From Chloroflexota bacterium (GTDB lineage: Bacteria; Chloroflexota; Anaerolineae; Anaerolineales; Villigracilaceae), in assembly GCA_021795965.1 (NCBI GenBank), contig JAJYOU010000003.1, forward strand, positions 62,001 through 126,000: a stretch of DNA of 64,000 bases, in the 5' to 3' direction. Positions 22,700-43,601 of this stretch are shown here, one piece after another. The translations under genes were made by a program, and so were the position numbers. The notes under the pieces were generated by a model. It saw nothing but the letters and a program-made list of their open reading frames with translations, was not told where the DNA came from and did no database searches. Within the stretch, counting starts at the first letter, position 1; each line of letters begins with the position of its first letter.

Positions 22700-22726
22700 T
22701 TTTGCTCCTGTCAAAAATCGTTGGGA

Positions 22727-24134: not shown

Positions 24135-24201
24135 TTTTTTAAATTTTTCTGTTTCCTGGCTGGTTAAAAAAATGGATCTAATCAACCAGCCAGGTATATT
24201 T

Positions 24202-26184: not shown

Positions 26185-26207
26185 TATGAATCCTTTAAGT
26201 TATTTTT

Positions 26208-26741: not shown

Positions 26742-26750
26742 GGTTTTTCC

Positions 26751-27347: not shown

Positions 27348-27394
27348 ACCCATTCTCCTCTTTTTTGGCACAAATCCAATTCAAAACCACAGTT

Positions 27395-27874: not shown

Positions 27875-27993
27875 CAAATTCTCCAATTCGACCAGGCAAT
27901 TATCCAGAACAGATCAAAACCAGTTCGGGCTGACATTCGTCCATATGTCTGGCAAAAATATCCGTTCTTACAAGAATTTCATTACATTGAAGT

Positions 27994-30069
27994 CTAGTCA
28001 ACCTGCTGTCCAACCGCGGACCCAGCAATTTGATTCCGGCGAACACGCGCAGGAACGATTTCAACTTCCTTATCCGGCCAGCCTGCCACGATGGAACCAA
28101 AAATCAAAATGATTGATCCCAACCAGAGCCAATTGACAAGTGGATTATGGTAAATTTTAAAAGTGGCTCCGCTGGATAAAATAGGTTGCCAGTCGACCAG
28201 GATGACATAGAGATCATCTGCCATGGTCGAACGCACGCCTGGAATCGTCATCGGCTGCTGAGATTCGTAGTAATAATCACGGCGGGGGTAAAGCTCAGTC
28301 AGAAATTGGCCATTTTTTGAAACTGTCAGTACAGCGCGGGCAACGTTCCGGTTGTCATTGGTGTCGAATACCGCCAAATCCTTATAGGTGACCGTGTAAC
28401 CATCGAGTTGGAGGGACTGACCTTGCGCGATGGTGCCTTGAGTTTGCGTCTGGAACATTTCGATCCCAATGATTCCCAGCGACATGCAGACAATGGCAAG
28501 GTGGATGATGTATCCGCCATAACGGCGGCGATTTCGTCCTGCCAAACGCCAGAGTGCCAGCAGGATATTTTCCTTTTGCGCCCGGCTGCGAGCACGAGCT
28601 GCCCGCCAAAATTCATAAATCGTGATAAACGCGCTTGTGAAAATCACAAAGAAACCGATCAGGGCATATGGTTGGCGAATGTCAAATCCAAAAAAGATGA
28701 TCACCATCACAACCAGCGAAGCAATCAGCGGTTTCCACATGGCTTGTCCGAGTGTCTTAAGGGTGGAATGACCCCAAGCCGAAAGCGGGGCAATCCCCAT
28801 TAAAAGCACCAGGGCAGCAAAAAGCGGTCCGGTCGCGTTTTTATAAAAAGGAGGGCCGACAGTGATTTTTTGCCCAGTAACAAGTTCTGAGATCAATGGG
28901 AAAATCACTCCCCAAAAACAAACTACCAGGATGCTCATGAAAAGGAGATTGTTCAGTAAAAATAAGGCTTCACGGGATAACATGGAAGTCATCTGTGATT
29001 CGGCTTTAAGATCCGCCCAACGGTAGATCAGAAGAGCGACCGAGGTTACAAAAGTGATACCGATGAAGATGAAAAATGCAGGACCAATCGCACTTTGCGC
29101 AAATGCATGGACGGAGGAAAGAACGCCAGACCTGGTCAGGAAAGTACCAAATATCACCAGGGCATAAGTCAGGATGATCAGCAGCATATTCCAATACTTG
29201 AGCATGCCTCTTTTTTCCTGGATCATGACCGAATGCAGGAAAGCCGTTCCTGTCAGCCAAGGCATGAAGGCTGAGATTTCAACCGGGTCCCAACCCCAAT
29301 AACCTCCCCAACCCAAAACATCGTAAGCCCACCTGCCGCCTAAAACCAACCCAAGCGAAAGAAAAGTCCAGGCGATGATGGTCCAACGCCTGGTGATTCG
29401 AATCCAACGATCGTCCGTTCGCCCGGTCACCAAAGCGGCAATTGCAAAGGCAAATGGGATCACAAAACTGACAAATCCAAGATAAAGCATCGGTGGATGA
29501 ATGACCATTCCGGGATGCCTGAGCAGAGGGTTCAAACCGCGTCCATCCGTGGGGGCGAAGAAGGCAGACCCGGCAGGTTGGAACATCGCTGAAATCACAT
29601 CACCGCTAAAAGATTTCCAATATTGAAGGAATGGATTTTCATAAAAAATAACCAGCCCTACGAAGAAAGCCATGGTCAAACTCGTGACCACCACCACCCA
29701 GGGCAGAAACTCGCGGTCGCGATCCCATTTTCGCAGTGAGACTGCTGTGGAGAATGCAGCCATGAGCCAGGCCCAAAAAACCAGGGACCCTGATTGACCG
29801 CCCCAGAGCGAGGTGATCTTCAGGTACATGGGCATGGAACGACTGGTGACTTCGTAAACAAAAGCCACATGGTATTGGTCATTTACCAACAGGTAAATCA
29901 GGCTGATGACACTCAATGTGAGGATCGGGAATGTGAGCTGCATCGCCAGGCGGGAGCTTTCCACCCATTTTTGAGATCGGTGCACGTAACCATAAACTGC
30001 CGACCCAATCGCATAGATTGCCAGAATAAAGCTTAAGATTAAGACGCCATAACCAAAATCTTCAACCAT
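27994..30069 (-). CDS. ccmF: Haem lyase CcmF
   Basis: 691 aa, about 14-15 transmembrane helices, somewhat longer than average. WWD motif GWGGYWGWDPVE and flanking conserved segments HPPMLYLGFVSF (His), FLHSVMIQEKRGM (His) and SGVLSSVHAFAQS (His), as expected for the CcmF haem handling site. The C-terminal soluble domain is extracytoplasmic. It accepts haem from CcmE and ligates it to CxxCH. The order E-F-H is the usual cluster order. Confidence 0.95.
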   Translation of the reverse strand: MVEDFGYGVLILSFILAIYAIGSAVYGYVHRSQKWVESSRLAMQLTFPILTLSVISLIYLLVNDQYHVAFVYEVTSRSMPMYLKITSLWGGQSGSLVFWAWLMAAFSTAVSLRKWDRDREFLPWVVVVTSLTMAFFVGLVIFYENPFLQYWKSFSGDVISAMFQPAGSAFFAPTDGRGLNPLLRHPGMVIHPPMLYLGFVSFVIPFAFAIAALVTGRTDDRWIRITRRWTIIAWTFLSLGLVLGGRWAYDVLGWGGYWGWDPVEISAFMPWLTGTAFLHSVMIQEKRGMLKYWNMLLIILTYALVIFGTFLTRSGVLSSVHAFAQSAIGPAFFIFIGITFVTSVALLIYRWADLKAESQMTSMLSREALFLLNNLLFMSILVVCFWGVIFPLISELVTGQKITVGPPFYKNATGPLFAALVLLMGIAPLSAWGHSTLKTLGQAMWKPLIASLVVMVIIFFGFDIRQPYALIGFFVIFTSAFITIYEFWRAARARSRAQKENILLALWRLAGRNRRRYGGYIIHLAIVCMSLGIIGIEMFQTQTQGTIAQGQSLQLDGYTVTYKDLAVFDTNDNRNVARAVLTVSKNGQFLTELYPRRDYYYESQQPMTIPGVRSTMADDLYVILVDWQPILSSGATFKIYHNPLVNWLWLGSIILIFGSIVAGWPDKEVEIVPARVRRNQIAGSAVGQQVD

Positions 30070-30137
30070 TCATTATTCTCCAAATGTAATCAAACTCGGA
30101 TTGGATCCGTTAATTCCTGTAATTCCTGCCAGGCAGT

Positions 30138-30623
30138 TTATCCTTGGGATTGCTGCGGGACTGCATCTTCATATTTCGTGGGACATTTCAAAAGCAACTC
30201 ATCTGCATGAAAAATGCCTTCTGAATCGAGGTGACCAGTCATAATTGCCTGGGCTTCATTTCGCATCAAATCAGGTTTGACCCCAACATAAATCACTTCC
30301 AGTTTGTTTCTCTGCGGATCAATCACCGCGGTATGCAGAACGGCTGCCAACCCGCCTTCTTTTTCAATTTCAGCATTGTCACCCGATACATGCGCTACGG
30401 TAAATTTTAAAGTGAGAGTTTTCGGGTCATAGGTGATCGTATCCCCAATCACCGCGCCAGAAACGCGGATATTTTGGTTGACGATAGTGGATTGTTGCGC
30501 TTTTATTTCATCCACGGTCATGAAGTACTCAGCGCTGGCTTTTGTGGAAGAAATAATTAAATAAGCCACCGCAACAAGAATTAACAAACCACCAATTAAA
30601 AACTTAATTTTTGGAGAATTCAT
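30138..30623 (-). CDS. ccmE: Haem chaperone CcmE, cysteine (CxxxY) variant
   Basis: 161 aa. N-terminal transmembrane helix (about 7-24), then an OB fold beginning VDEIKAQQ..NIRVSGAVIG and ending MTGHLDSEGIFHADELLLKC. The haem-binding His of the classical HxxxY motif is Cys147 here, followed by Tyr151 (CPTKY). In archaea, Desulfovibrio and some Gram-positives this CxxxY form is known. First gene of the ccm operon; the promoter is in 30624-30790 but not resolved. Confidence 0.9.
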   Translation of the reverse strand: MNSPKIKFLIGGLLILVAVAYLIISSTKASAEYFMTVDEIKAQQSTIVNQNIRVSGAVIGDTITYDPKTLTLKFTVAHVSGDNAEIEKEGGLAAVLHTAVIDPQRNKLEVIYVGVKPDLMRNEAQAIMTGHLDSEGIFHADELLLKCPTKYEDAVPQQSQG

Positions 30624-30843: not shown

Positions 30844-32115
30844 CTAAACTTCAGAATGCTCCGACCCATTTTGGAAAGGCAAAAACCGGGTCGCCAGGCT
30901 GAAAGTAAGAAACCAGTAGGCAATCACCATTGTGCCCACCGCAAATTCAACCCAGGTTGGTGTATACGAATACAGGCGAACCGTGGGCGTATAAGGGTCA
31001 TAAGTCGCTCCAGCGATCAATCCTGCAAAATTGTAACTCCAGCGCGTCAATACCGTGGCAAAAATGGGCAAGACAGCCGACGCCATCAAAATTCGGAAAG
31101 AACGGATTTTTTTTGCATTTAGCAGGATCACCCCGGCGATGACCGGTAAAAGAGCCTGCCCCAGCCAGAAAGTCATGGAATACGGGGCAACCGAGTCCAG
31201 GAGTTGGGTCTGCAAAGATATTTGCTTATCAAAACTGTAATAATTGGTAACAGCCCAATCCCAAAAGCGCAGGTAAACCAGCAGCAGGGTGATTGCCCCT
31301 GCCAGGCGGGCAACATCGTATAAAATCTCATCCTTAACTGTACCGGGACGCATGACCCTGAAAACAAAGACACTGGCAAAAAACAGAAGGGAAATTCCTC
31401 CACTCATGGCGGAGAAAACAAATTGGGTCGGCGCACTTTGGTTGAACCAAACGCCACGACCATAAAGGACAGAGTAGGTTGCTCCAAGGGATGCCTGGTG
31501 GAGCAGAGAGAGAGTCATGCCGATGATAGCCAGGAGGGGACCGAATTTATGAATGGTATGTCCCACTGCCTGCAAAAAATTAGCCAGGGTTCGCAGGATC
31601 TTGTAGCGTTCCAGGAGCGGGTGGTCCTTGAAAATTGGGTGCTCCGTGATTGATGGGATCAATTCTGCCACCAGAACAGTCAGGTAAAGCACCACGCACA
31701 TCGTAATTTCCCAGAGCAGGGAGTGCGGCTGCCAGTAAATAATCGGGTGCCAAAAACGAAAAGGTTGCCCAAGGTCCATCAAGAGAATTAAGCCCGCGCT
31801 GGAGTAGCCGAGGAAACCAATTAACACTGCCAATTTTCCAACCGCCTCGAAACGCTTAATCTGCAAGATATAGATGATGGCGCCGAATACAAATGCACAG
31901 CCACCCAGGGCAATCGAGGATAAGTCAATTGAAATCCACAAACCCCAGGGAACCTTGTTGGATAACCCGGTTACCTGCAGACCATCCCGAAAGACATAAT
32001 AAACTCCAACCAACCCAAACATGATGCAGGCAAGTAAAAACCCGATCCAATATGGGAATATATCAACCATCTTCTTTCCGAAACGAATTTTTGGATAAAT
32101 AATTGATGTTTGCAT
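30844..32115 (-). CDS. NrfD/HybB/PsrC family quinone-interacting membrane subunit
   Basis: 423 aa, about ten transmembrane helices. Seen: IGFLLACIMFGLVGVYYV, WGLWISIDLSSIALGGCAFVFGA, the segment FRFWHPIIYWQPHSLLWEI, and LLHQASLGATYSVLYGR (conserved His, possible quinone site). Such subunits bind menaquinone and pass electrons to or from an attached Fe-S subunit. It starts 3 nt after the 4Fe-4S protein, whose upstream neighbour is a heptahaem cytochrome. HybB-type features (long helices at the N- and C-terminus) fit best. Confidence 0.88.
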   Translation of the reverse strand: MQTSIIYPKIRFGKKMVDIFPYWIGFLLACIMFGLVGVYYVFRDGLQVTGLSNKVPWGLWISIDLSSIALGGCAFVFGAIIYILQIKRFEAVGKLAVLIGFLGYSSAGLILLMDLGQPFRFWHPIIYWQPHSLLWEITMCVVLYLTVLVAELIPSITEHPIFKDHPLLERYKILRTLANFLQAVGHTIHKFGPLLAIIGMTLSLLHQASLGATYSVLYGRGVWFNQSAPTQFVFSAMSGGISLLFFASVFVFRVMRPGTVKDEILYDVARLAGAITLLLVYLRFWDWAVTNYYSFDKQISLQTQLLDSVAPYSMTFWLGQALLPVIAGVILLNAKKIRSFRILMASAVLPIFATVLTRWSYNFAGLIAGATYDPYTPTVRLYSYTPTWVEFAVGTMVIAYWFLTFSLATRFLPFQNGSEHSEV

Positions 32116-32118
32116 AGC

Positions 32119-32955
32119 TTATCCCTTCTGGAAAGGGTTATTGATGTTAGCTTCAGGCGGAATGTAATACACACTTGGCTCGGTGCTCAGTTCTTCTTCA
32201 CGAAGTCGCATGACAATCTTTGCTTCTGCGAGTACCTTGGAAACGGGGCTGTCCGGGTTTGTCAGATCTCCAAACGCCCTCGCTCCCGTCGGACAGGCGA
32301 CAACACAGGCTGGGGTCGCATTCGTATCCACGCCGGGAACCAATCCGCGGGCCAACCCACCATCAATCCGATGGACACAAAATGTACATTTTTCAACCAC
32401 TCCGCGCGGTCGGTTGGACACTTCAGCATACCCAAAATTTGGGGACTTCGGACTGGTTTTTATAGGGGCTTTCCAGTTGAAGACACGCGCATCGTAGGGA
32501 CAAGCCACCTGGCAATAACGGCACCCGATACAGCGGGTGTAATCCATCATTACGATGCCGTCCTGCCGTTTATACGTGGCTTTTACAGGGCAAACATGCA
32601 CACATGGGGCTTCGCCACAGTGCATACAGGGGCGGGAGAGAAAAAATTCTTTTCCATTTTGGAGTGTTTCTGTCGTGACCACACAATAAACCATATTGTC
32701 GGCAAGATTGTTAACAGCCTGACAGGAATAAGTGCAATATTTGCAACCGATACATTTATTAATATCAATCGACATTCCCCATTGGGGACCGCTGCCCGTC
32801 TCACCTTCAGCCCGATGTTGGCTGGCCTGGGTGACAGTAATGATTGTTTGAGTTAGAGCTGCAGCACCAGCCAGTGCGCCGCCCAATTTGATCAAATCGC
32901 GCCGTGAGGTATTGCCCTTTTCGGCTTTGGTTTGATTTTCATCCTTCTCTTTCAT
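32119..32955 (-). CDS. TAT-exported 4x[4Fe-4S] ferredoxin subunit (HybA/NrfC-like)
   Basis: 278 aa. Twin-arginine signal TSRRDLIKLGGALAGAA (Arg18-Arg19). Four cluster motifs: CIGCKYCTYSC, CMHCGEAPCVHVC, CIGCRYCQVAC with the fourth set at CTFCVHRID plus C.VAC, giving about sixteen cysteines. It would be translocated folded and sit on the outer face of the membrane, relaying electrons between the NrfD-like quinone site and the heptahaem cytochrome. No catalytic (molybdopterin or hydrogenase) subunit accompanies it. Operon order: cytochrome, ferredoxin, NrfD-like. Confidence 0.92.
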   Translation of the reverse strand: MKEKDENQTKAEKGNTSRRDLIKLGGALAGAAALTQTIITVTQASQHRAEGETGSGPQWGMSIDINKCIGCKYCTYSCQAVNNLADNMVYCVVTTETLQNGKEFFLSRPCMHCGEAPCVHVCPVKATYKRQDGIVMMDYTRCIGCRYCQVACPYDARVFNWKAPIKTSPKSPNFGYAEVSNRPRGVVEKCTFCVHRIDGGLARGLVPGVDTNATPACVVACPTGARAFGDLTNPDSPVSKVLAEAKIVMRLREEELSTEPSVYYIPPEANINNPFQKG

Positions 32956-33014: not shown

Positions 33015-33824
33015 TTATTTCGTGGGTTGGCCCGGTTCTTTCGCAAAAATTGCCCAGGATCCAATGCTACCAATTAGTAATCCGCCAAGGAGAAGCAAAA
33101 CGGAAGGTAAATGAATCCCACCAGCGGGGGTTGGAACCGGTGTTTCGGTTGGTTCAATTCCAATCGCACTGACATCCATGGGAGTTGCCAAAGGCTCAAT
33201 CTTGATGCCTGAACTGACAATTCGATTAGCTTTATGAAGATTTTGATGACAATCACCGCAGGTCGATCCTGCTACTACCAAAGTATGGCTTCTGCTGGTC
33301 CCCATGTGACAATTAATGCAGTTCAAGCCAGCTGCGGCGTGGGTGGAGCCAACCATATCCTGCATTTGCTCTTTATGACAATTCTCACATACGATTTTTG
33401 ACCCTGGAGAAAGTACCGGTCCCTGGGAATGAGGTTCATGGCAGGTTGTGCACTTCAAACCTACCTGGCCATGTTTGCTGAGTGCCAATTGTCCGGCAAT
33501 GTTTTCACCAGCCACTTCCGTGTGGCAGACCTGGCAGGTAGTGGCTTCATCCTCAATCGTATATTTGATCTGCGGGTGCTGCCCTTCACCAGATCCCAGC
33601 TTGTGGCAGACAAGGCAATTGACATTTCCAGAAGCATGCTTACTGCTCGACCAGGTCGCCACCTGGGTTGCGTGACAATTCTGGCAAGTATCGGTGATGT
33701 TGGACTGATTGGTTGCAGCAGCTGCCACATGTTCGGTCGGAGCCATCACCAGAAAACCAATCAGCAAGAATATCAGCGCCAAACACCATGTCAGGATCAA
33801 ATGTATGTAATTAGGTTTATTCAT
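33015..33824 (-). CDS. Membrane-anchored heptahaem cytochrome c
   Basis: 269 aa from the ATG at 33824 (GGAG 9 nt upstream). Signal peptide ending AAA, seven CxxCH motifs (CQNCH, CLVCH, CQVCH, CTTCH, CENCH, CINCH, CGDCH), then a Thr/Pro linker and a C-terminal transmembrane anchor (about 235-258, LLLLGGLLIGSIG). The haem spacing is irregular, like the NapC/NirT-Nrf and doubled-CXXCH families. It would take electrons from, or give them to, the Fe-S/NrfD module downstream. A Crp/Fnr-like palindrome lies just upstream. Confidence 0.88.
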   Translation of the reverse strand: MNKPNYIHLILTWCLALIFLLIGFLVMAPTEHVAAAATNQSNITDTCQNCHATQVATWSSSKHASGNVNCLVCHKLGSGEGQHPQIKYTIEDEATTCQVCHTEVAGENIAGQLALSKHGQVGLKCTTCHEPHSQGPVLSPGSKIVCENCHKEQMQDMVGSTHAAAGLNCINCHMGTSRSHTLVVAGSTCGDCHQNLHKANRIVSSGIKIEPLATPMDVSAIGIEPTETPVPTPAGGIHLPSVLLLLGGLLIGSIGSWAIFAKEPGQPTK

Positions 33825-33843
33825 CGATACATTCTCCAATTAA

Positions 33844-34087: not shown

Positions 34088-34333
34088 ATGAGTGATCCTG
34101 CTGGCAACCCAGTCTACGTAGCCCTTTTGTTTATCCTTCGATGCTTGATTCCTTTGTTAGTCCTCTTTGGAATCTCATATTTACTTCGTCGCCTGGGGCT
34201 GGTTCAAACCCAAGACCCGGAACCCCCTCAAGACGATTATTACGAATACGGCGAACCCTACGACGACGAAGAACATGCTGCACCTGAAACCTCGCCAGGT
34301 GACACCTCCAAATCAAACTCAAGGGGGTCATAA
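34088..34333 (+). CDS. Small membrane protein upstream of the multihaem array
   Basis: 81 aa. AGCGGAGGG lies 7 nt before the ATG. One hydrophobic segment (about 9-31, YVALLFILRCLIPLLVLFGI) with LLRRLGL after it, then a very acidic, Pro/Tyr-rich, probably disordered tail (EPPQDDYYEYGEPYDDEE). The multihaem cytochrome gene begins 4 nt later, so it is the first gene of the array operon. Role unknown; assembly factor or small subunit of the cytochrome complex is possible. No family recognised. Confidence 0.75.
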   Translation: MSDPAGNPVYVALLFILRCLIPLLVLFGISYLLRRLGLVQTQDPEPPQDDYYEYGEPYDDEEHAAPETSPGDTSKSNSRGS

Positions 34334-34336
34334 CCC

Positions 34337-35446
34337 ATGACTACCTACAACTTTCAACGTCTAAAAATAAGCAGCCTCACAGCTGGAATAATCGTTCTTT
34401 TGCTGTGTTTCGTCTTTATTACTCCGGCTCGAGCCGGACAGCCAGCCCAGGAAACTGATAAATATTGTCTTTCCTGTCACTCCGATTCAAACCTGAGCAT
34501 GACCATGCCAAGCGGGGAAAAAGTCTCCTTATTTGTATCCCTGGATTCGATCGAACATTCAGTGCATGGCAAATTGGGGATGGAATGTGAAGCCTGTCAT
34601 ACCAACCTCTCCACTTTCCCTCATCCACAACAAAACTTCCAATCCAGGCGGGACCTCTCGATCTCTTTGTACCAGGCCTGCCAGAAATGCCATGCAGATA
34701 ATTACGAGAAAACCAAGGATAGCTATCACGCCAAAATTGCTGCGGAGGGGAATAAGAACGCTGCTATCTGCACCGATTGCCACGGTTATCACGATATCCA
34801 GGTACCCGATCAACCCCGTTCCAGAATTTCCACAACCTGCAGTAAATGCCATGCTGAAATTTATAACACTTACAAAGAAAGCGTTCATGGATCTGCGCTG
34901 ATCAATGAGAATAACCAGGATGTCCCTGTTTGTACAGATTGTCATGGAGTTCACAATATTCTGGACCCACGCACGGCAAATTTCCGGGTTCAAACTCCCG
35001 AAATGTGCGCCCGCTGCCATGCAGACAAAACCTTGATGGACAAATATGGCTTGTCCACTGATGTCTACAGTCTTTACAAAACATCCTGGCACGGTGTCGA
35101 TATCTCGGTCTATAAAGCTCGCTGGCCAACCATCTGGCATGATAGTGCCGTCTGTTCAGACTGCCACGGCACGCATAATATTTTCAAGACCGACGATCCG
35201 AGGTCCGAGGTTAACCCGAAAAATCTTCTGCAAACTTGTCGTAAATGCCACCCTGACGCGGGTCCAAATTGGACAGGTGCCTGGACTGGTCATAACAAGA
35301 TCAGTCTGCAGCGAACACCCATGCTTTTCTATGTTGATGCTTTTTATTCCTCCTTCACCCCCTTCATTTTATGGATCTGCATCATTTACGTGGTTTTGCA
35401 AATCATCCACGCAATTGTTGACCGTTTCAGGAGTAACCTGCCATGA
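34337..35446 (+). CDS. Nonahaem cytochrome c with C-terminal membrane anchor (copy 1)
   Basis: 369 aa. Signal peptide ending ARAGQP. Nine CxxCH motifs (CLSCH, CEACH, CQKCH, CTDCH, CSKCH, CTDCH, CARCH, CSDCH, CRKCH), with spaced extra His such as SVHG and SWHG that can be distal ligands. A C-terminal transmembrane helix follows (about 336-360, FYSSFTPFILWICIIYVVL). The haem binding repeats (C-x-x-CH-x(n)-SVHG, CTDCHGxH) are shared with copies 2 and 3 (36165, 41172). Its stop overlaps the start of the cytochrome b gene (ATGA), so the two make one complex. Located outside the membrane. Confidence 0.9.
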   Translation: MTTYNFQRLKISSLTAGIIVLLLCFVFITPARAGQPAQETDKYCLSCHSDSNLSMTMPSGEKVSLFVSLDSIEHSVHGKLGMECEACHTNLSTFPHPQQNFQSRRDLSISLYQACQKCHADNYEKTKDSYHAKIAAEGNKNAAICTDCHGYHDIQVPDQPRSRISTTCSKCHAEIYNTYKESVHGSALINENNQDVPVCTDCHGVHNILDPRTANFRVQTPEMCARCHADKTLMDKYGLSTDVYSLYKTSWHGVDISVYKARWPTIWHDSAVCSDCHGTHNIFKTDDPRSEVNPKNLLQTCRKCHPDAGPNWTGAWTGHNKISLQRTPMLFYVDAFYSSFTPFILWICIIYVVLQIIHAIVDRFRSNLP

Positions 35447-36168
35447 CCGACAAAAAACCACAAGTACAAATCCAACAAGAGCGGACCTATCCCAGGTTTG
35501 ACCTGGGCCAGCGTTGGGAACATGGGTTGCTGGTAATCAGTGCAACAGTTCTTATGCTGACTGGGCTTCCGCAAAAATTTCGAGATTTGTCATGGAGCCA
35601 GTATCTTCTTTCAACCCCACACAGGCTGGAAATTTTCCAGCAAATTCACCATATTGCGGCATTGGTGCTCATTCTTGAAGCCCTTTATCACATTGGGAAA
35701 GCTATTTATCAACTTTCCAAACGTAAACTTTCAGCGGAATTTTTCCCCACCATGCAGGATGTTAAAGATGCCGGTCACATGTTGCAATATCTTTTCTTCC
35801 TCCGCAAGGATAAACCCAAATACGGGAAATATAATTTTGAACAGAAAGTGACTTATTGGGTTGTCTTTTTAGGCTTTCTGCTGATGATCATCAGCGGTTT
35901 GATCATCTGGTTTCCAATATTTTTTACAGATTACCTGCCTGGAGGTATCATTCCGGCAGCCAAATTAATGCACAGCACTGAAGCCATGGTAGCCACCATT
36001 TTCATATTAATCTGGCATTTCTACCACGTACACATTGAAAGATTAAACTTAAGCATCTTTACCGGGCGTTTGAGCGAAAAAGAGATGAAGGTTTACCACT
36101 CCCGGGAATATGAGCGCTTGAATCGAAAAAGCTCAAAGGAAATCAATAAACCAGGAGACCGGAAGTGA
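35443..36168 (+). CDS. Di-haem cytochrome b (FdnI/NarI-type) of the array, copy 1
   Basis: 241 aa, four transmembrane helices. Four His with fixed spacing: His27 and His83 (56 apart), His177 and His192 (15 apart), the pattern of cytochrome b subunits of formate dehydrogenase/Ni-Fe hydrogenase type. Copies 2 and 3 keep exactly the same distances. The WHFYHVHI segment lies at 191-198. It would oxidise or reduce menaquinone and exchange electrons with the attached nonahaem protein. Overlaps both neighbours (ATGA before; GTG start of the next gene at 36165). Confidence 0.88.
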   Translation: MTDKKPQVQIQQERTYPRFDLGQRWEHGLLVISATVLMLTGLPQKFRDLSWSQYLLSTPHRLEIFQQIHHIAALVLILEALYHIGKAIYQLSKRKLSAEFFPTMQDVKDAGHMLQYLFFLRKDKPKYGKYNFEQKVTYWVVFLGFLLMIISGLIIWFPIFFTDYLPGGIIPAAKLMHSTEAMVATIFILIWHFYHVHIERLNLSIFTGRLSEKEMKVYHSREYERLNRKSSKEINKPGDRK

Positions 36169-37376
36169 TTCGAATTCACCCATTCATCAAAATAGCTGGC
36201 TTGGCAACATTGCTGCTAATCCTGGGTGTTTCAATCCATCCGGTTAAAGCAGCCCCCACTTCTCAGGTTCCGACCGCGCAAAAAGCACTGATCAACCCCG
36301 ACGATTCTGCCTGTCTTGCCTGCCATCAAAACCCGAACTTTAATATTACAATCGGCATTCAGCAAAAGGAAACTCTCAGCCTTTTTGTTGATCCATCCAA
36401 GTTCCAACATTCGGTGCATGGAGAAATTGGAATTTCCTGTATAGGGTGTCACGAGGGGTTTAAACCTGAAGCCGGGCATGGCATGGTTTATGGCAGTCAT
36501 CGTGAATTGACCCTGCGCATGAATACTATTTGTGCGAACTGCCATCAGAAACAATCCGACCAGGAAAAAGACAGTGTCCATGCAGCCGCGCGGGCAGCAG
36601 GAAAACTCGAAGCCGCGATTTGCACAGACTGCCATACCGCGCATGAAGTCCAGCGTCTGAAAGATCCAAAAACCGGACAATTATTTCCAACGACGAGAAT
36701 CTGGATCCCGCTGACCTGCCAAAAATGCCATAGTACCATTTATGAAAAATATCGCAACAGTGTGCATGGTATCGCCCTGACAGATGGGAATAATCCTGAT
36801 GTGCCAACATGTATCGACTGCCACGGCGTTCATATCATTGAAGATCCAACCACTGCAAAATTCCGTCTTGACAGCCCGATGCTGTGCGCAAAATGTCATA
36901 CAAACCCGGCCATTATGGACAAGTATGGCATTTCCACACAAGTCTTGAACACCTACGTGGCAGATTTTCATGGAACCACGGTCACGATTTTTGAAAAATT
37001 ATCCCCCGATTCCGTCACAAACAAGCCTGTTTGCTACGACTGCCACGGTGTGCATGATATTACCAATGTTAACGACCCGCAAAAAGGTCTGACTATCAAG
37101 CAAAATTTACTCAAAAAATGCCAAAGGTGCCATCCTAATGCAAATACCAATTTCCCCGATGCCTGGCTTTCACACTACATCCCGAGCCCGCAGAAATACC
37201 CGATTGTGTATTACATTAATTTGTTCTATACCTTCTTTATTCCCGGGATATTGCTGCCAATGGCGGTATTGGTCTTAATGGATTTCGGACGGGCAATGGT
37301 GAATAAATTTACCAAACCTCACAGCAAGAAAAAAATCTTTTATCACACCAGCGACGGGGAGGATCACCATGAATAA
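36165..37376 (+). CDS. Nonahaem cytochrome c with C-terminal membrane anchor (copy 2)
   Basis: 403 aa; GTG start at 36165 overlaps the previous stop (GTGA), with GGAG upstream. Signal peptide ending VKAAPT. Nine CxxCH (CLACH, CIGCH, CANCH, CTDCH, CQKCH, CIDCH, CAKCH, CYDCH, CQRCH). The sequence segments KYGIST and CTDCHTAH match copies 1 and 3, so these are paralogues. A C-terminal helix (about 355-378) is followed by a Lys/His-rich cytosolic tail (SKKKIFYHTSDGEDHHE). Confidence 0.9.
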   Translation: MIRIHPFIKIAGLATLLLILGVSIHPVKAAPTSQVPTAQKALINPDDSACLACHQNPNFNITIGIQQKETLSLFVDPSKFQHSVHGEIGISCIGCHEGFKPEAGHGMVYGSHRELTLRMNTICANCHQKQSDQEKDSVHAAARAAGKLEAAICTDCHTAHEVQRLKDPKTGQLFPTTRIWIPLTCQKCHSTIYEKYRNSVHGIALTDGNNPDVPTCIDCHGVHIIEDPTTAKFRLDSPMLCAKCHTNPAIMDKYGISTQVLNTYVADFHGTTVTIFEKLSPDSVTNKPVCYDCHGVHDITNVNDPQKGLTIKQNLLKKCQRCHPNANTNFPDAWLSHYIPSPQKYPIVYYINLFYTFFIPGILLPMAVLVLMDFGRAMVNKFTKPHSKKKIFYHTSDGEDHHE

Positions 37377-38577
37377 ACTACCAAAGATGCCCCGGCTCGC
37401 CAGGCGTGATAGAAAACGACCTGTAGTTCAACCACAACCGGAATATAAGCGCTTTGATCTGCTCCAAAGAAGTGAGCATATCCTTTTCCTCCTTTCTTTC
37501 ACGCTCCTTGCCCTGACCGGTTTGCCACAAAAATTTCCACTTTCACCGATCAGCGACTGGATCTTTGGAATGCTTGGCGGTGTGGAAACGGCTCGTGCGA
37601 TACATCACCTTTCTGCCATTGCAATGATCATCATGAGCACTGTCCACATCCTCGAAGTTCCCTACCGGCTTATCGTTTTCCGAACTCCCATCACAATGAT
37701 CCCGTGGCTGGATGATGTGCGTCATGTGTGGGACGATATCCTCTATTATCTTGGATTCCGTAAGCATAAAGCATACTACGGTCGTTATTCTTATGCGGAA
37801 AAAATGGAATACCTTTCGCTGATCTGGGGAACGGTAGTGATGGCTATCACGGGTTTCATGATGTGGAACCCAATCACCACCTTGAAGTTTTTACCCGGCG
37901 AAGCCATTCCGGCTGCCAAAGCCGCACACGGCGGCGAGGCTCTCCTGGCTGTACTCGCAATCATCATCTGGCACTTCTACCATGTTCATATTAAAATGTT
38001 CAATAAGAGCATGTTCACTGGCTATATGAGCCGGGAAGAGATGCATCATGAACACCCTGCTGAACTGGCAGCCATTGACGAGGGGAAAAAGGTTGCCCCG
38101 AAAATCCCATTAAAAACTTTGACCTTACGGCGACTGATGTATCTGCCCTTCGCCGGAGTGACCCTCGCGGCTGCAGGTTTTGCCCTTTTCTACCTGGTGG
38201 ATTACGAAAATACCGCCATTAACTATGCACCTCCTGGCGAAACCGCGAAGGTTTTCGCACCATTGCCAACTCAAACTCCGCTTCCGACCCAGGCTGTACC
38301 CACTCCTGCCGCCCTGACCTGGACCTCTTTCGTCGGACCTCTTTTGCAACAAAAATGCACTGTCTGTCACGGCGTCAATGGTGTGGCTGGTTTGAATCTA
38401 ACCACCTATTCTGACGCAATGAAGGGTGCCACCACGGGTCCTGTAATTGTCAGCAATGATGCTGCCAACAGCCTGCTCTACCAAATTCAATCGGCAGGAG
38501 GTCACCCTGGACAGCTCCAGGCAAATGAATTGGAATTTATCAAACAGTGGATCGATGCAGGTGCACCAGAAAATTAA
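37369..38577 (+). CDS. Di-haem cytochrome b fused to a C-terminal cytochrome c domain
   Basis: 402 aa. Residues about 30-220 form a four-helix cytochrome b with His37/His93 (56 apart) and His187/His202 (15 apart). A fifth helix (about 254-277) leads outside to a Thr/Pro linker and one cytochrome c motif CTVCHGVNG (about 335), with the GLNLTTYSDAMKG and LEFIKQWIDAGAP segments typical of the planctomycete/c6-like type. Thus this copy carries its own monohaem domain. The start overlaps the previous gene by 8 nt. It ends the first block of the array; a terminator follows. Confidence 0.9.
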   Translation: MNKLPKMPRLARRDRKRPVVQPQPEYKRFDLLQRSEHILFLLSFTLLALTGLPQKFPLSPISDWIFGMLGGVETARAIHHLSAIAMIIMSTVHILEVPYRLIVFRTPITMIPWLDDVRHVWDDILYYLGFRKHKAYYGRYSYAEKMEYLSLIWGTVVMAITGFMMWNPITTLKFLPGEAIPAAKAAHGGEALLAVLAIIIWHFYHVHIKMFNKSMFTGYMSREEMHHEHPAELAAIDEGKKVAPKIPLKTLTLRRLMYLPFAGVTLAAAGFALFYLVDYENTAINYAPPGETAKVFAPLPTQTPLPTQAVPTPAALTWTSFVGPLLQQKCTVCHGVNGVAGLNLTTYSDAMKGATTGPVIVSNDAANSLLYQIQSAGGHPGQLQANELEFIKQWIDAGAPEN

Positions 38578-38600
38578 ATTTGCCTGTTAATATCAATAAA

Positions 38601-38635
38601 AAAATGGTTTCCTTTACGCAAGGGAAACCATTTTT
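38601..38635. terminator. Terminator after the first multihaem block
   Basis: Inverted repeat AAAATGGTTTCCTTT / AAGGGAAACCATTTT around 38601-38634 with loop ACGC (one mismatch), T-run after it on the plus strand and A-run before it, so it could serve both strands. It lies 24 nt after the cytochrome b-c stop and about 100 nt from the convergent zinc-ribbon gene. Confidence 0.85.
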
Positions 38636-38735
38636 GTTTCTGATGGATTTAATTTTGTCTTTATTGCTCAATAGTGTCCGACCAGAATCGATTTTTTTTA
38701 ACCGCCGAGTCACTCACTTCTCCACAATAGTTAAC

Positions 38736-39674
38736 TCAGATCTCCCGGATTCGGGCACCGCAGGTGCGACAGAAGCGATCGCCTGGTTTGGCCAGCTTGC
38801 CGCATTGGGAACAATGAACCTCGCTGCTGCCAACCTCCTCCACTTCGAGCGCGCGTACAGAATGGCGCTTTCGGGATGAGCCTGCCCTTTCAGGTCCCTT
38901 TTTGGAAGTCCAGTAGATATACCCCGCAACCAGCAGACAAATCACTCCAAACCCAACCAGTAACCAGGGTGCATTCGCCGTGAGGTCTGAAAGCCAGGAG
39001 TTCCAGCCGGATTGACCTGGTAAATTTTGGTCGAGAGGAGCACTTGGTTGAACTTTTAGAAATGCAGTGCTGGGAGAATCGGTCTCTCGCTGATATTTGA
39101 TCACAAATGATAATTCCTGACCGGGTGCGAGATTGGTCCTGGTCATGCTGCTTAATTGAAAACCGTCAGTATCCACGGTTGAATTGGTCAGAGGCGGAAC
39201 AACACTCACATTGGTTGATTGCAAAGGCTGGCGAAATTCAAAACTGAAGTTTTTGACTGCATAATCTCCCAACCATTGATAGGTAAATTCCCGTTGATTA
39301 CCAGTTTTCAACAGGTTGGGATCATAATATTCGATCTGAAGAAAGCGACCAGTCGCGGTCAAATTTATTCGTGAGTAATCAGTGCTAGTCGTGAATGTTT
39401 TGATCACTCCTGCGTCTGATACCCTGTCAAACGCATCTCCCACCGCAACCGCCGAGAGTTCCTTGACACTGGCTGGTAAGCGTAAAATAACATCCGTTGG
39501 CAGGTTGACGCCCGGATCGAGCGCAATTTTATAAATCACCAGGGCGGTGGAGGTGTCATATTCTGGCCAAATACTCACGTCCATGGATTCAAAAGTGATA
39601 GGACTTTGAGCTTTCGCGCTGGCAGGAAAAATCAACAAGGCTAAAATGAAAATAATTATGAAATACTTTCGCAT
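38736..39674 (-). CDS. Exported beta-domain protein with transmembrane helix and C-terminal zinc ribbon
   Basis: 312 aa from the ATG at 39674 (GGAGG 7 nt upstream). Signal peptide (FIIIFILALLIFPASAKAQ), an extracytoplasmic beta-rich region (about 20-210), a transmembrane helix (about 229-250, NAPWLLVGFGVICLLVAGY), a basic stretch, and a C-terminal zinc ribbon CSQCGK-x(7)-FCRTCG. This plan (outside beta domain, helix, cytosolic metal knuckle) repeats the layout of the 24202-26184 gene's second half. Function unknown; convergent with the array. Confidence 0.7.
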   Translation of the reverse strand: MRKYFIIIFILALLIFPASAKAQSPITFESMDVSIWPEYDTSTALVIYKIALDPGVNLPTDVILRLPASVKELSAVAVGDAFDRVSDAGVIKTFTTSTDYSRINLTATGRFLQIEYYDPNLLKTGNQREFTYQWLGDYAVKNFSFEFRQPLQSTNVSVVPPLTNSTVDTDGFQLSSMTRTNLAPGQELSFVIKYQRETDSPSTAFLKVQPSAPLDQNLPGQSGWNSWLSDLTANAPWLLVGFGVICLLVAGYIYWTSKKGPERAGSSRKRHSVRALEVEEVGSSEVHCSQCGKLAKPGDRFCRTCGARIREI

Positions 39675-39865
39675 AACAGGACCTCCATCCAAGAAATACG
39701 AGCAGATATTACCATAAATTTTTAAGATTTATTTAAGTTAAAGAGGTTCTAACCAAGGTCTAAAGTTTCTAATGCCGGTTTTTTTTAACAGGATTCGCTT
39801 TCGCGCCCTCGTGATTCCCTTATCTAATAAGATCCGCCCAGGTCGAATTGGATATATTAACATGA

Positions 39866-39887
39866 TAAAATCATTTAGATGATTTTA
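39866..39887. promoter_or_regulatory. Palindrome upstream of the response regulator gene
   Basis: TAAAATCAT-N4-ATGATTTTA, a perfect 9-bp inverted repeat ending 73 nt before the response regulator start. A third copy of the half-site (AAAATCATTT) follows at 39899. It could be an autoregulatory operator for the NarL-type regulator, or an operator for a global anaerobic factor. Confidence 0.5.
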
Positions 39888-39960
39888 AATTTGATCAACA
39901 AAATCATTTGGGGTCACAATAGAAAAATACGGCTCCAGGTTTTCTGAAAGACCCTGATAA

Positions 39961-40584
39961 ATGAGAATTTTTGTCATAGATGATCATTCCCTGTTTCGAG
40001 ATGGGGTTACCAGTTTGCTGAATGTCGGCGGGCATGATGTCGTCGGTCAGGCTGGGGATGGAAAAACAGCCCTGGAAAAAGTATTAACACTGCGACCTGA
40101 CCTGGTTTTGTTGGATATCAACTTGCCTGAAATGGATGGAATTCAGACTTTAAAGGAAATAAAAGCCGCCCTCCCTGAAACCAAAATCGTCATCCTGACT
40201 ATTTCCGAAGAAGATCATCATATTTTTTCAGCCATTAAAGCCGGGGCGGATGGTTACTTATTAAAATATCTGAATGCCCAGGAATTCCTCAAAATATTGG
40301 GTGAATTGGAGCATGGCATGCCTGCAGTTGATCCTTCGATCGCGGGACGTTTGTACAGACATTTTGGACAGGATGCAGTGGATTCCAGGGACCTGACTCT
40401 TTCCGAGAGGGAAATTGAAGTCCTTAAGCTGGTGGCTGAAGGCAAATCAAACCGCGATGTTGCCCAATCTCTTTCTATCAGCGAAAATACAATCAAATTC
40501 CACGTCAGGAAAATCATGGCGAAATTGAACACATCCAATCGGACCGAAACAGTCGTGGTGGCTTCACAAAAGAAATTGATCTAA
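39961..40584 (+). CDS. NarL/FixJ family response regulator
   Basis: 207 aa. Receiver domain with Asp7/Asp8, phospho-acceptor Asp52 (LLDINLP), Thr80 and Lys102 all in place; C-terminal LuxR-type HTH (LTLSEREIEVLKLVAEGKSNRDVAQSLSISENTIKFHVRKIMAKL). No sensor kinase is in the window, so it is an orphan here. Its position between the first array block and the pseudo-receiver suggests control of cytochrome gene expression, for example by redox state; inference. Confidence 0.93.
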   Translation: MRIFVIDDHSLFRDGVTSLLNVGGHDVVGQAGDGKTALEKVLTLRPDLVLLDINLPEMDGIQTLKEIKAALPETKIVILTISEEDHHIFSAIKAGADGYLLKYLNAQEFLKILGELEHGMPAVDPSIAGRLYRHFGQDAVDSRDLTLSEREIEVLKLVAEGKSNRDVAQSLSISENTIKFHVRKIMAKLNTSNRTETVVVASQKKLI

Positions 40585-40633
40585 AATCCCCCGATTAATA
40601 CAGTTTTATACTGATGCAACCCTCCTTCTTTCG

Positions 40634-40675
40634 AGGATTATTAAAACTATACTAAAGTGTAGTTTCAATAATCCT
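40634..40675. repeat. Near-perfect 42-nt hairpin/inverted repeat
   Basis: Arms at 40634-40653 and 40656-40675 match at 18 of 20 positions (begin AGGATTATT, end AATAATCCT) with a 2-nt loop. It starts 50 nt after the response regulator stop and ends 106 nt before the pseudo-receiver start. No T-run follows, so it is not a typical terminator. It may be a protein-binding palindrome or an RNA hairpin in the pseudo-receiver leader. Confidence 0.7.
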
Positions 40676-40780
40676 ATTTACCATCCTTTCGGCGATATCA
40701 ATCTACCTTTTGGAATGTTGTCTCATTTAATTTTAATATTATAATTGTTCGATAATTCACAATATGATGAAATTGGGCTT

Positions 40781-41167
40781 ATGATCACCTTTGCGGTAAT
40801 ATCAGATCATTCTTTGATGATGGAAGGGATTATTTCCCGTCTTTCATTAATCGAGCCTCCTATTATCGTTCACCTGATGGAATCTGCTCAAAAATCAGTG
40901 ATCGAAGAGTTGGTGACCACACAGCCCGAGGTCATCATCGTTGAATCCAAAATATTAAGCAACCCTGTTATTTTTTCACTAAACCGCTTATTTACCGAAT
41001 TATCCAGGGTTGTTGTCATTGAGGTCAGCTTGCATTCATCAATTATACAGATCATTGGAAGCAATCAATACGAAGCTTCCAGCGTTTCAGATTTAATCTC
41101 CATTTTTCAAAATGTTTCCGGGTACCCGCCGGCAGATGTTAATTCCTTTAAGGCAGTTGTGTGTTGA
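40781..41167 (+). CDS. Stand-alone degenerate receiver domain (Asp-to-Glu), no output domain
   Basis: 128 aa from the ATG at 40781. It aligns with the receiver half of the preceding regulator: VISDHSLMMEG matches VIDDHSLFRDG and PEVIIVESK matches PDLVLLDIN. One acidic pocket residue is Ser (Asp7-to-Ser8), the phospho-acceptor Asp is Glu55, and the usual Thr and Lys are not conserved. No DNA-binding domain follows; the frame ends at 41167, 4 nt before the multihaem gene. Glu in place of Asp often mimics the phosphorylated state, so this may be a constitutively active partner or inhibitor. It might equally be a decaying copy; the frame is intact and coupled to the next gene. Confidence 0.6.
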   Translation: MITFAVISDHSLMMEGIISRLSLIEPPIIVHLMESAQKSVIEELVTTQPEVIIVESKILSNPVIFSLNRLFTELSRVVVIEVSLHSSIIQIIGSNQYEASSVSDLISIFQNVSGYPPADVNSFKAVVC

Positions 41168-41171
41168 GACC

Positions 41172-42443
41172 ATGAGAATTAATTCACTTATCGTTCGCTC
41201 TTTTGTCCTGATTTTTATCATATTCACTGCGCTGGTCTTGTTAACGAGTATGAATACGACCAGCGTTTCTGCGCATGCCAGGTTTGACCTGACAGGAACC
41301 CCAGCCCCCCAGGCCAGTGCCACTCCTCCCCCTCAAGTCAGCTCAGCCACCCCGCTTCCTGACTCCAATCCACACATCAACGGAGTATGCCTGGGTTGCC
41401 ATGGAAAAATAAAGATGCAAGGCAGGTTGGCGAATGGTGAGTTAATTACACTCAATATCAAAATGCTGACCGACCAGAGTTCCTTCCACACCCAGAAGGG
41501 CGTGAGCTGCACCATCTGCCATCAGGATCAGGTCAATTATCCGCATAAAGGTTCCGCCGATGATTCATGCGCAACCTGTCATCCGCAATCGGTCGACATC
41601 GCTCCAGATTCTGAAGAGACTTTCACTTTTATTCTTCCGTTTAAGGACACCCGAGACCTGGCAATTTCTCTCTCCATAGCCTGTCAAAAATGCCATGGAG
41701 ATAAATTCGAGCAAGTAAAAAACAGCTCGCACACGAAGTTGCTGGCTGAAGGCAATACTGCCACCCCGGTTTGTGTGGATTGCCATACCGGGCATGATAT
41801 TGTCACGGTCGACAGGCAAACGGTTTCAAAAGTCTGCCAGAAATGCCACATGACTGAATACACCGCTTATAAAGCCAGCATCCACGGTTCAGCCCTCGAA
41901 AAGGAAAGCAACCAGGATGTTCCCACCTGCTCCGATTGTCACGGCTCACATGACGTTAAAGGCCCAAGTGATAACAGCTTCCGTCAGACCGCTGCAACTG
42001 AGATTTGCGGCAAATGCCACACCAATAAAGCGATTATGGATAAATACGGCATATCCACCAATGTCCTGACGACTTACATGGACGACGTTCATGGCCGGAC
42101 CTCACTTCTGGGCGGTATTGATAAAAGTGGTATTGTCAAAGCCACCTGCTATGATTGTCACGGCACACATGATATCCTGACTCCTTCCAATCCGTATTCC
42201 AAGGTTTACCCGGAAAACCTGCAGAAGACTTGCCAGCAGTGTCACAAGGATGCCAATATCACCTTTCCTGAAGCCTGGTTGAGCCACAAAACTCCTTCAA
42301 TGAATTCAATGCCTGCATTATTTCTGACAAACCGCTATGCGCTGGACATGGTCGGCATCATCGCAGGTTTGATCGTCCTCTTCATTCTTCTTGACGTTCG
42401 CCGGCAGCTTTCCATGAAAGCCAGGGAACCTGAAAATGAGTAA
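41172..42443 (+). CDS. Decahaem cytochrome c with C-terminal membrane anchor (copy 3)
   Basis: 423 aa from the ATG at 41172, 4 nt after the pseudo-receiver stop. Signal/anchor (about 8-33), a Pro/Ala-rich linker, ten CxxCH motifs (CLGCH, CTICH, CATCH, CQKCH, CVDCH, CQKCH, CSDCH, CGKCH, CYDCH, CQQCH), and a C-terminal transmembrane helix (about 388-410). It shares KYGIST, CYDCHGTHDI and the late segments with copies 1 and 2 and has one extra haem near the N-terminus. Extracytoplasmic; forms a pair with the cytochrome b gene 21 nt downstream. Confidence 0.9.
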   Translation: MRINSLIVRSFVLIFIIFTALVLLTSMNTTSVSAHARFDLTGTPAPQASATPPPQVSSATPLPDSNPHINGVCLGCHGKIKMQGRLANGELITLNIKMLTDQSSFHTQKGVSCTICHQDQVNYPHKGSADDSCATCHPQSVDIAPDSEETFTFILPFKDTRDLAISLSIACQKCHGDKFEQVKNSSHTKLLAEGNTATPVCVDCHTGHDIVTVDRQTVSKVCQKCHMTEYTAYKASIHGSALEKESNQDVPTCSDCHGSHDVKGPSDNSFRQTAATEICGKCHTNKAIMDKYGISTNVLTTYMDDVHGRTSLLGGIDKSGIVKATCYDCHGTHDILTPSNPYSKVYPENLQKTCQQCHKDANITFPEAWLSHKTPSMNSMPALFLTNRYALDMVGIIAGLIVLFILLDVRRQLSMKAREPENE

Positions 42444-42464
42444 TTTACTCCAGGAACTTTCTCG

Positions 42465-43601
42465 ATGACAAATATGAAAGAACAAAAACCTACTTACAAG
42501 AAATTTCGCCAACGGGCAACCCGCCGGGATGCTATAGACGCATTTACCCACCTTGAACCCGTGCGGGAGGGACACAATTACCTGATTCGTTTCTCCAAAG
42601 AATCACGAATTGAGCATCTTGTTTTAATGATTTCTGTGTTCATGCTGGCTTTGACCGGACTTTCCCAAACGTTTATGGTTCACCCCTTTGGTAAATTTAT
42701 TTTAACTTCCCTGGGTGGTTTGGAATCTACTCAGAATATCCATCATTTTTTTGCGTTGTTGCTCGGACTTTTGGCAGCCTTTCATTTATTGTTCGTACTC
42801 GATGGACTCTTCGTTCGCCGCATTAACTTCAAGATGATTCAGCCGCTGGATGACCTCAAAAATATCTTTCACATGTTTGGTCTCCTGCTCGGATTCTACA
42901 AAAAATTGCCGATTTTTGATCGTTACAAACCCGACGAAAAATTTATTTACTGGATGACCGTTAAAGCGGTCATTTTTTCGGGACTGACCGGTCTCCTGAT
43001 GCTCTACCCCGTCCAGGCACTTCAACTGGTGCCGGGCAGTGTTTACCCGTTCGCGGTGCTCATTCACCGCTGGATGGCTATCCTGGTGGTCCTGATCGTC
43101 GTAGTTTTGCATGGATACCAGACCCTCGTAATTCGCAGGAACTGGAGTATTTTTAACGGACGGATGGCATTAATCGACATGAAGGAAGAACATCCTGTCG
43201 AGCTGGCGTATCTCAACCAGGCAGCACTGCTCAAGGATGACAAGCATTGGCCGCATTTCATCGAATTTTCGGTCGAAGTGCCGCGAGCCGGGAGAATTTT
43301 CGTCTATGACCAGGAAATGGAACCTGCTGCAGAAAACGTCACGCAGCCCGCTGTCTCACCCTCAGCTGAATCTACACCACCAATCCCCGAAGCAGTTCCC
43401 CTGCCTACAGAATTGACCCCTCAAAACGTCAGGGAACCCGATCAGGAGAGCCTGGTCCACGAGGAAAAACTGCCTCAAGCCGAGATGAATGAACTCAAGA
43501 CACCAGAATCAACAGCCCTGGCAGCAGTTTCTGCGGAGGATCCTGCCAACAGTGACGAAATCGTCCCTGACAACCAGGCTGATCAAGCGGATTCAAGCTG
43601 A
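42465..43601 (+). CDS. Di-haem cytochrome b with long acidic C-terminal tail (copy 3)
   Basis: 378 aa. His51/His107 (56 apart) and His201/His216 (15 apart) match copies 1 and 2 exactly, so both haems are probably bound. The WHFYHVHI segment of the other copies is LHGYQTLVI here. After residue about 275 comes a Pro/Glu-rich low-complexity tail (QPAVSPSAESTPPIPEA and similar), probably disordered and cytosolic, in the place of the extra helix and cytochrome c domain of copy 2. The last gene of the array. Confidence 0.88.
   Translation: MTNMKEQKPTYKKFRQRATRRDAIDAFTHLEPVREGHNYLIRFSKESRIEHLVLMISVFMLALTGLSQTFMVHPFGKFILTSLGGLESTQNIHHFFALLLGLLAAFHLLFVLDGLFVRRINFKMIQPLDDLKNIFHMFGLLLGFYKKLPIFDRYKPDEKFIYWMTVKAVIFSGLTGLLMLYPVQALQLVPGSVYPFAVLIHRWMAILVVLIVVVLHGYQTLVIRRNWSIFNGRMALIDMKEEHPVELAYLNQAALLKDDKHWPHFIEFSVEVPRAGRIFVYDQEMEPAAENVTQPAVSPSAESTPPIPEAVPLPTELTPQNVREPDQESLVHEEKLPQAEMNELKTPESTALAAVSAEDPANSDEIVPDNQADQADSS

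Follow-up and report, generated by a model that had tools for sequence, protein, structure and literature searches.

In a 64,000-nucleotide (nt) stretch of a Chloroflexota genome (contig JAJYOU010000003.1, positions 62,001 to 126,000; referred to below as the window), we analyzed three gene pairs, each encoding an anchored multihaem cytochrome c (c1, c2, c3) and a membrane cytochrome b (b1, b2, b3). The pairs are probably split quinol:multihaem-cytochrome oxidoreductases of the CbcL/CbcBA type, which would feed electrons outward to a porin-free surface electron transfer system. The analysis showed the pairing of the two genes, their co-inheritance, the conserved ligand sets, the fold of the b protein and the lack of an outer-membrane apparatus; the assembly of c and b into a complex, the reaction with quinone, the partner and the direction of flow are inferred. 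The pairs are arranged as follows:

34337..35446, plus strand: c1, nonahaem cytochrome c with signal peptide and C-terminal membrane helix (9 CxxCH)
35443..36168, plus strand: b1, four-helix cytochrome b of the FdnI/PF01292 fold, by its fold a putative quinone-reactive subunit (PF01292, 62.4 bits)
36165..37376, plus strand: c2, nonahaem cytochrome c with C-terminal anchor (9 CxxCH; transmembrane segment 353-371; GTG start)
37369..38577, plus strand: b2, cytochrome b with a fifth helix and a C-terminal, PSCyt1-like monohaem c domain (PF01292 and PF07635 above cut-off; CxxCH at 330)
41172..42443, plus strand: c3, decahaem cytochrome c with C-terminal anchor (10 CxxCH; transmembrane segment 391-409; support 100 for the c3 clade)
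42465..43601, plus strand: b3, cytochrome b with an N-terminal extension and an acidic, Pro-rich C-terminal tail (PF01292, 55.6 bits; tail composition)

Translation of the open reading frames (ORFs) in the window yielded 9, 9 and 10 CxxCH motifs in c1, c2 and c3, respectively. Such counts are not due to chance, because no other frame of the window comes close to them except that of a seven-haem gene at 33015-33839. All three c proteins start with a hydrophobic segment or signal peptide and end in a segment with a mean Kyte-Doolittle value of 2.3-2.6, which corresponds to a membrane helix; c2 is 41% identical to c1. The genes overlap by 4 nt (c1-b1), 4 nt (b1-c2) and 8 nt (c2-b2). An earlier note, made from the sequence alone, had described the three pairs with these motif counts and C-terminal helices, and its ORFs, starts and counts were all recovered. 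It had also assigned a four-helix b to every copy. The family assignment holds, since a profile search matched b1, b2 and b3 to PF01292 above cut-off, whereas the helix number does not hold for b2, in which a fifth helix is predicted beyond the four. The two variations that it had noticed in the b proteins were found as well. The extra monohaem c domain of b2 contains one CxxCH within the PSCyt1 match, and the final 123 residues of b3 comprise 26 D/E against 7 K/R, together with 16 P. Provided that the FdnI topology holds, this acidic tail would be cytoplasmic.

Homologues of c were present in 35 of 61 genomes (the genome of the window and its relatives) and, at E 1e-30, in 27 of 400 genomes from the phylum at large. 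A scan of named genomes returned 561 relatives. The best 79 loci belonged mostly to Anaerolineae, with further members in Dehalococcoidia, Caldilineae and Thermoflexia, and also included Myxococcota, Methylomirabilota, Tectimicrobiota, Acidobacteriota, Actinomycetota and Nitrospirota. Of 151 c-family ORFs in the retrieved loci, 140 were followed on their own strand by a b gene no more than 400 nt away, and in 61 cases the two genes overlapped by 1-8 nt. The b genes were identified by six-frame profile searches, which exposed copies hidden behind ORFs called on the antisense strand in high-GC DNA. The other 11 c-family ORFs consisted of six at or near a contig edge, three from Myxococcota, in which b was seen by eye in the next frame downstream, and two that scored low and are different proteins. 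Thus, the c-b pair, which the earlier note had proposed to be conserved as a unit, is so in Chloroflexota as well as in six further phyla, in almost all relatives whose loci leave enough space to show it. In one Myxococcota metagenome-assembled genome (MAG), a single 1333-amino-acid (aa) ORF (L133:5398-9396) joins 16 haems, a nonahaem c domain and cytochrome b.

The two genes were also inherited together. After removal of copies arising from overlapping loci in two locus sets, 120 distinct c-b pairs remained, and their c and b distances were strongly correlated (r 0.86; maximum of 999 permutations, 0.15). The c1 clade, with 22 members, was monophyletic with support 100 in both the c and the b tree, and the c3 clade had support of 100 and 98 in the two trees. 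The distance from c1 to orthologues of other genera was 0.4-0.6, compared with 2.1 to c2 and 2.5 to c3 within its own genome. The copies thus arose by duplication of whole pairs and, because c1 is nearer to these orthologues than to its own paralogues, did so before the genera examined diverged. This agrees with the duplication suggested earlier: the c and b trees were congruent and did not point to unrelated transfers.

The b subunit shows the fold of a quinone-linked cytochrome b, both in its sequence and in a structural model, in line with the family to which it had been assigned in the earlier note. E. coli FdnI (1kqf_C) was matched by sequence with E 3e-20. An AlphaFold2 (AF2) model of b1, with a mean predicted local distance difference test (pLDDT) score of 87 and four long membrane helices, had the same chain as its best match in the PDB (E 2.6e-6, TM-score 0.63/0.69), followed by hydrogenase-1 cytochrome b. 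As had been noticed before, the spacings of 56 residues (H27-H83) and 15 residues (H177-H192; b1 numbering) are identical across b1-b3. These four histidines were invariant in 42 aligned b proteins, two of which have a spacing of 57 instead of 56. However, the 56-residue pair is probably not a ligand pair. Residues H18, H57, H155 and H169 of FdnI, which we take to be its haem ligands, align with H27, H69, H177 and H192 of b1, and H69 is as invariant as H83 (42 of 42). Therefore, the ligands are probably spaced by 42 and 15 residues. H219 was invariant too. H83, a fifth invariant membrane histidine, follows H69 by 14 residues and is part of helix 2. The spacings of H69/H83 and H177/H192 (14 and 15) are reminiscent of cytochrome b6, though the fold is that of FdnI.

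A role of b as a subunit of a formate dehydrogenase or hydrogenase was considered and rejected. Scores of b1-b3 for TIGR01583 (formate dehydrogenase gamma) were 82.0, 43.3 and 45.0 bits, below the cut-off of 115.85; the cut-off of CytB-hydogenase was likewise missed, and no such enzyme is encoded beside b. When plasmid records were searched, b1 matched formate dehydrogenase gamma genes only, and c1 gave no match.

The histidines of the c subunit suggest that it conducts electrons. In an alignment of 44 sequences, the nine CxxCH histidines of c1 were conserved in 43 or 44, and exactly nine further histidines (77, 96, 131, 152, 184, 206, 252, 280 and 319) were conserved to the same extent. The remaining ones (74, 268 and 358) were not conserved. 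Since these eighteen conserved histidines predict bis-His ligation at all nine haems, c1 would be a wire without an open catalytic haem. The possibility that c is a catalytic nitrite or hydroxylamine enzyme was discarded, because every c1 haem has a conserved second histidine. An AF2 model of c1 (mean pLDDT 87) had no match with E < 0.001 when compared with the PDB by Foldseek. In a second look with VIA-align, c1 aligned to the haem-chain part of hydroxylamine oxidoreductase (HAO) with Z 9.4 over 235 residues at a root-mean-square deviation (rmsd) of 12.6, and to MtrA with Z 6.7 over 212 residues at an rmsd of 5.0. As the Z values of 8-9 come with an rmsd above 12, c1 appears to share only the common haem-chain arrangement with HAO.

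Consistent with the earlier claim that no outer-membrane porin is present, Omp85 was found in none of the 61 genomes, whereas it was detected in seven control genomes. MtrB (PF11854), the outer-membrane barrel of the porin-cytochrome (Mtr/Pcc) conduit, was likewise found in none of the 61. The genome of the window is 62% complete. The earlier note had also stated that no catalytic terminal reductase is encoded. This is true for the locus but does not hold for the genome, which on other contigs encodes two lipoproteins, one decahaem and one hexahaem, as well as a heptahaem protein of the NapC/NirT type. The decahaem protein (L185:6785-9166, contig C2) is a 794-aa OmcA/MtrC-like lipoprotein that has, by eye, 10 CxxCH motifs and an LTAC lipobox, followed by collagen-like GPA repeats. 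It matched PF22113 (MtrC/MtrF haem domains) above cut-off with 88 bits in two stretches, and TIGR03507 with 141.6 bits over residues 101-748 of 794, under the cut-off of 209.3. Orthologues with 68-76% identity stand alone in genomes G002, G008, G010 and G034. A full-length decahaem lipoprotein was present in 5 of 10 c1-type genomes and in 1 of 51 others (Fisher p 2e-4, with kinship ignored). The hexahaem lipoprotein (L186:6543-9563, contig C1) also has a GPA stalk and adjoins the NapC/NirT-type heptahaem protein. The latter ends in a PSCyt1 domain, and its homologues adjoin c-b pairs in relatives.

The surroundings of the pairs contain the following features:

34088..34333, plus strand: orf81, an 81-aa single-helix membrane protein with an acidic tail (one transmembrane segment), head gene of the c1-b1-c2-b2 operon
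38600..38635, plus strand: intrinsic-terminator-like hairpin of 16 pairs with a T tail, closing the c1-b2 operon (consensus match only)
39961..40584, plus strand: LuxR-type response regulator upstream of pair 3 (PF00072 and PF00196)
40745..41167, plus strand: 140-aa protein immediately upstream of c3, degenerate receiver-like by eye (no match in a Pfam search)
33015..33839, minus strand: heptahaem cytochrome c with a C-terminal helix, in a divergent module left of the array (7 CxxCH; kept beside the array in relatives)
32119..32955, minus strand: DsrO/QrcC-like 4Fe-4S protein with a twin-arginine translocation (TAT) signal, same module (NCBIfam DsrO, 207 bits against a cut-off of 200)
30844..32115, minus strand: NrfD/QrcD-like membrane protein, same module (PF03916, 76 bits)
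22010..30623, minus strand: cytochrome c maturation (Ccm) run on both sides of a di-haem cytochrome, with CcmB, CcmA, CcmF, CcmE, a thioredoxin-like protein and probably CcmC (Pfam matches; CcmC by position and gene order)

The genes orf81, c1, b1, c2 and b2 overlap or abut and form one operon. The hairpin starts 22 nt past b2, and pair 3 is located 2.5 kb further on, behind a zinc ribbon gene on the opposite strand, the LuxR-type regulator and the gene of the 140-aa protein. The tandem array of three described earlier thus contains three pairs, but two of them share an operon and the third is controlled separately (2 + 1). A similar LuxR-type regulator precedes pair 3 in loci L063, L065 and L068. 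The 140-aa protein is kept with pair 3 only, with a similar ORF before c3 in L063, L065, L068 and L074. Searches of Pfam and NCBIfam with orf81 gave no match. It was present in 22 of 22 c1-clade loci and in L063, where c1 has been lost, whereas all 56 other long loci lacked it. It therefore belongs to the system, as had been suspected, and is probably a small accessory or assembly subunit. The heptahaem/FeS/NrfD module and the Ccm genes lie by the array in the same arrangement in several relatives, and the NrfD and FeS genes were present in 15 of 20 long c1-clade loci. A gene inside the Ccm run (24202-26184) encodes a protein of 660 aa that contains two CBB3-type cytochrome c domains and is also kept in relatives.

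Comparison of the relatives revealed that b varies at its C-terminal end. No c haem is present in the b proteins of the 22 type 1 pairs and the 8 type 3 pairs. The other b proteins contain no CxxCH (29), one (47) or 2-12 (16), mostly within a C-terminal extension behind the fifth helix; L059 encodes the monohaem part in a gene of its own. The C-terminal tails in L139, L153, L132 and L138 carry 8-12 CxxCH motifs, and the tail in L139 is visibly repetitive. In 6 of 8 loci, type 3 pairs are followed by a cassette of an octahaem NapC/NirT-type protein, a TPR protein and an NHL propeller protein, usually together with a hexahaem or heptahaem cytochrome. The other two are the window, in which a panE-like gene comes after pair 3, and L063, where the contig ends. 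NHL and TPR genes likewise accompany cytochromes in Dethiobacter (PMC10376724). The spread of the pairs, the presence of three paralogues and the variable haem extension of b (0-12) are new detail.

In the mechanism that we propose, each c-b pair would form one membrane complex. The FdnI-fold b would exchange electrons with the (mena)quinone pool via two haems b, as its fold suggests, and would pass them to the outward-facing nonahaem or decahaem c, which its C-terminal helix would keep alongside b. The c subunit, all of whose haems are predicted to be bis-His in the nonahaem form, would act as a wire across the wall zone of the monoderm cell and deliver electrons to surface cytochromes. The candidate partner here is the OmcA/MtrC-like lipoprotein encoded elsewhere in the genome; in relatives, it may be a decahaem lipoprotein of ~740 aa or the NapC/NirT-TPR-NHL cassette. 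The paralogues differ in haem number, output end of b and regulation and, by analogy with CbcL and CbcBA in Geobacter, probably serve different partners or potentials. Most likely, the net direction is outward, by quinol oxidation. A tentative and, on balance, doubtful extension is that porin-free extracellular respiration of monoderm Chloroflexota uses a ladder of at least three split Cbc complexes at different potentials. In this ladder, b would bear interchangeable modules of 0 to 12 haems on the outward side, and the complexes would couple directly to OmcA/MtrC-like lipoproteins whose flexible GPA-repeat stalks span the wall, replacing an outer-membrane conduit.

Several points weigh against a split oxidoreductase working outward. 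The surface cytochrome gene is unlinked to the locus, and a full-length one is found in half of the c1-type genomes. The usual partner of FdnI is formate dehydrogenase, the fold is our sole ground for assigning quinone binding to b1-b3, and the adjacent NrfD module could be the main quinone enzyme. Moreover, haem-copper oxidases were matched over cut-off in 18 of 21 genomes (the genome of the window and close relatives), which makes electron import possible and, since most close relatives have such oxidases, a serious rival. The complexes would then run inward, from extracellular donors such as Fe(II), a partner cell or a cathode to quinone and on to oxygen or another acceptor. Low-potential menaquinone favors outward flow. 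The MAGs that contain the orthologues were obtained from lakes, groundwater and the subsurface; many of these sources are probably anoxic, which is not decisive. Proteins of the CbcL/MtoC/MtrH type occur in reducers and oxidizers alike, without a distinguishing feature (PMC6295460), and the Chloroflexota isolate Ardenticatena passes current in both directions (PMC5808234). On this balance, we regard import as conceivable but rather unlikely.

We also consider it unlikely that the pairs serve a local respiration, feeding soluble or wall-bound enzymes such as a reductase of nitrogen or sulfur oxyanions or the associated NrfD/DsrO-like complex. The divergent c7-FeS-NrfD module, kept by the array in relatives, and the resemblance of the c1 model to HAO speak for it. 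However, no terminal oxyanion reductase was recognized as recurring beside the pairs, MtrA superposes on c1 at the lower rmsd, and a second histidine is conserved for each of the nine c1 haems, unlike for the catalytic haems of HAO and NrfA. Finally, c and b could be operon neighbors that do not form one complex, given that the evidence comes from gene order and trees. With the near-invariant adjacency in seven phyla, the tree congruence and the L133 fusion, this is highly improbable.

The wiring between the quinone pool and the outside is largely open for monoderm bacteria, and no entry enzyme has been established for Chloroflexota, which live on anodes and in anoxic sediments. A published survey of CbcL from 2018 contained none from Chloroflexi (PMC6295460), perhaps since the fused form was sought. 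The question becomes testable with a defined module of two genes that is inherited widely, has a small subunit as its diagnostic mark and comes with a candidate partner at the surface. The L133 fusion and the varying number of haems in the tail of b show how evolution rebuilds such complexes. The earlier suggestion of an undescribed respiratory system was too strong, given the published CbcL (PMC9129911), CbcBA (PMC12307469) and split pairs of Carboxydocella (PMC6085454). The module is of a kind known from iron-reducing bacteria. Its split, multiplied and modular form in Chloroflexota is new in detail, and its interest lies in spread, modularity and monoderm setting rather than in a categorically new system.

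We compared the pairs with these known systems by description. In CbcL of Geobacter sulfurreducens, nine c haems, all measured to be bis-His, lie on the outer face and are joined to a di-haem b domain (PMC9129911). In CbcL and MtoC/MtrH, the b domain is of the HydC/FdnI type and the c part precedes it (PMC9129911, PMC6295460). Likewise, c1 has nine CxxCH with a predicted bis-His set (c2 also has 9, c3 10), the b domain is FdnI-like and c comes before b. In contrast to the single CbcL polypeptide, the window has separate overlapping genes, with a fusion only in the relative L133. The b part of CbcL has six helices, whereas here four are in b and one in c, with one more in b2; three paralogues are present, and there is no outer membrane. 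The Gram-positive iron reducer Carboxydocella thermautotrophica provides a precedent for split adjacent genes, as CFE_2192-2193 and CFE_2225-2226 each encode a di-haem b membrane protein and an anchored, outward multihaem c; the parts of that report on which we draw mention neither an 81-aa head gene nor tandem diverged pairs (PMC6085454). Mco of ANME-2 archaea combines a repurposed hydrogenase-type cytochrome b with a 7-11-haem cytochrome c and reaches outside the cell without an outer membrane (PMC9012536). It differs in its VhtC-type b, in the b-then-c gene order and in using methanophenazine instead of quinone. The b and c cytochromes of Geobacter CbcBA are separate proteins. CbcBA is located in the inner membrane and acts near -0.2 V (PMC12307469); its host is diderm, in contrast to that of the pairs described here. 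With E. coli FdnI, the b proteins share the fold and the four haem-ligand histidine positions, and they differ in having a multihaem cytochrome c as partner and the extra invariant H83 in helix 2.

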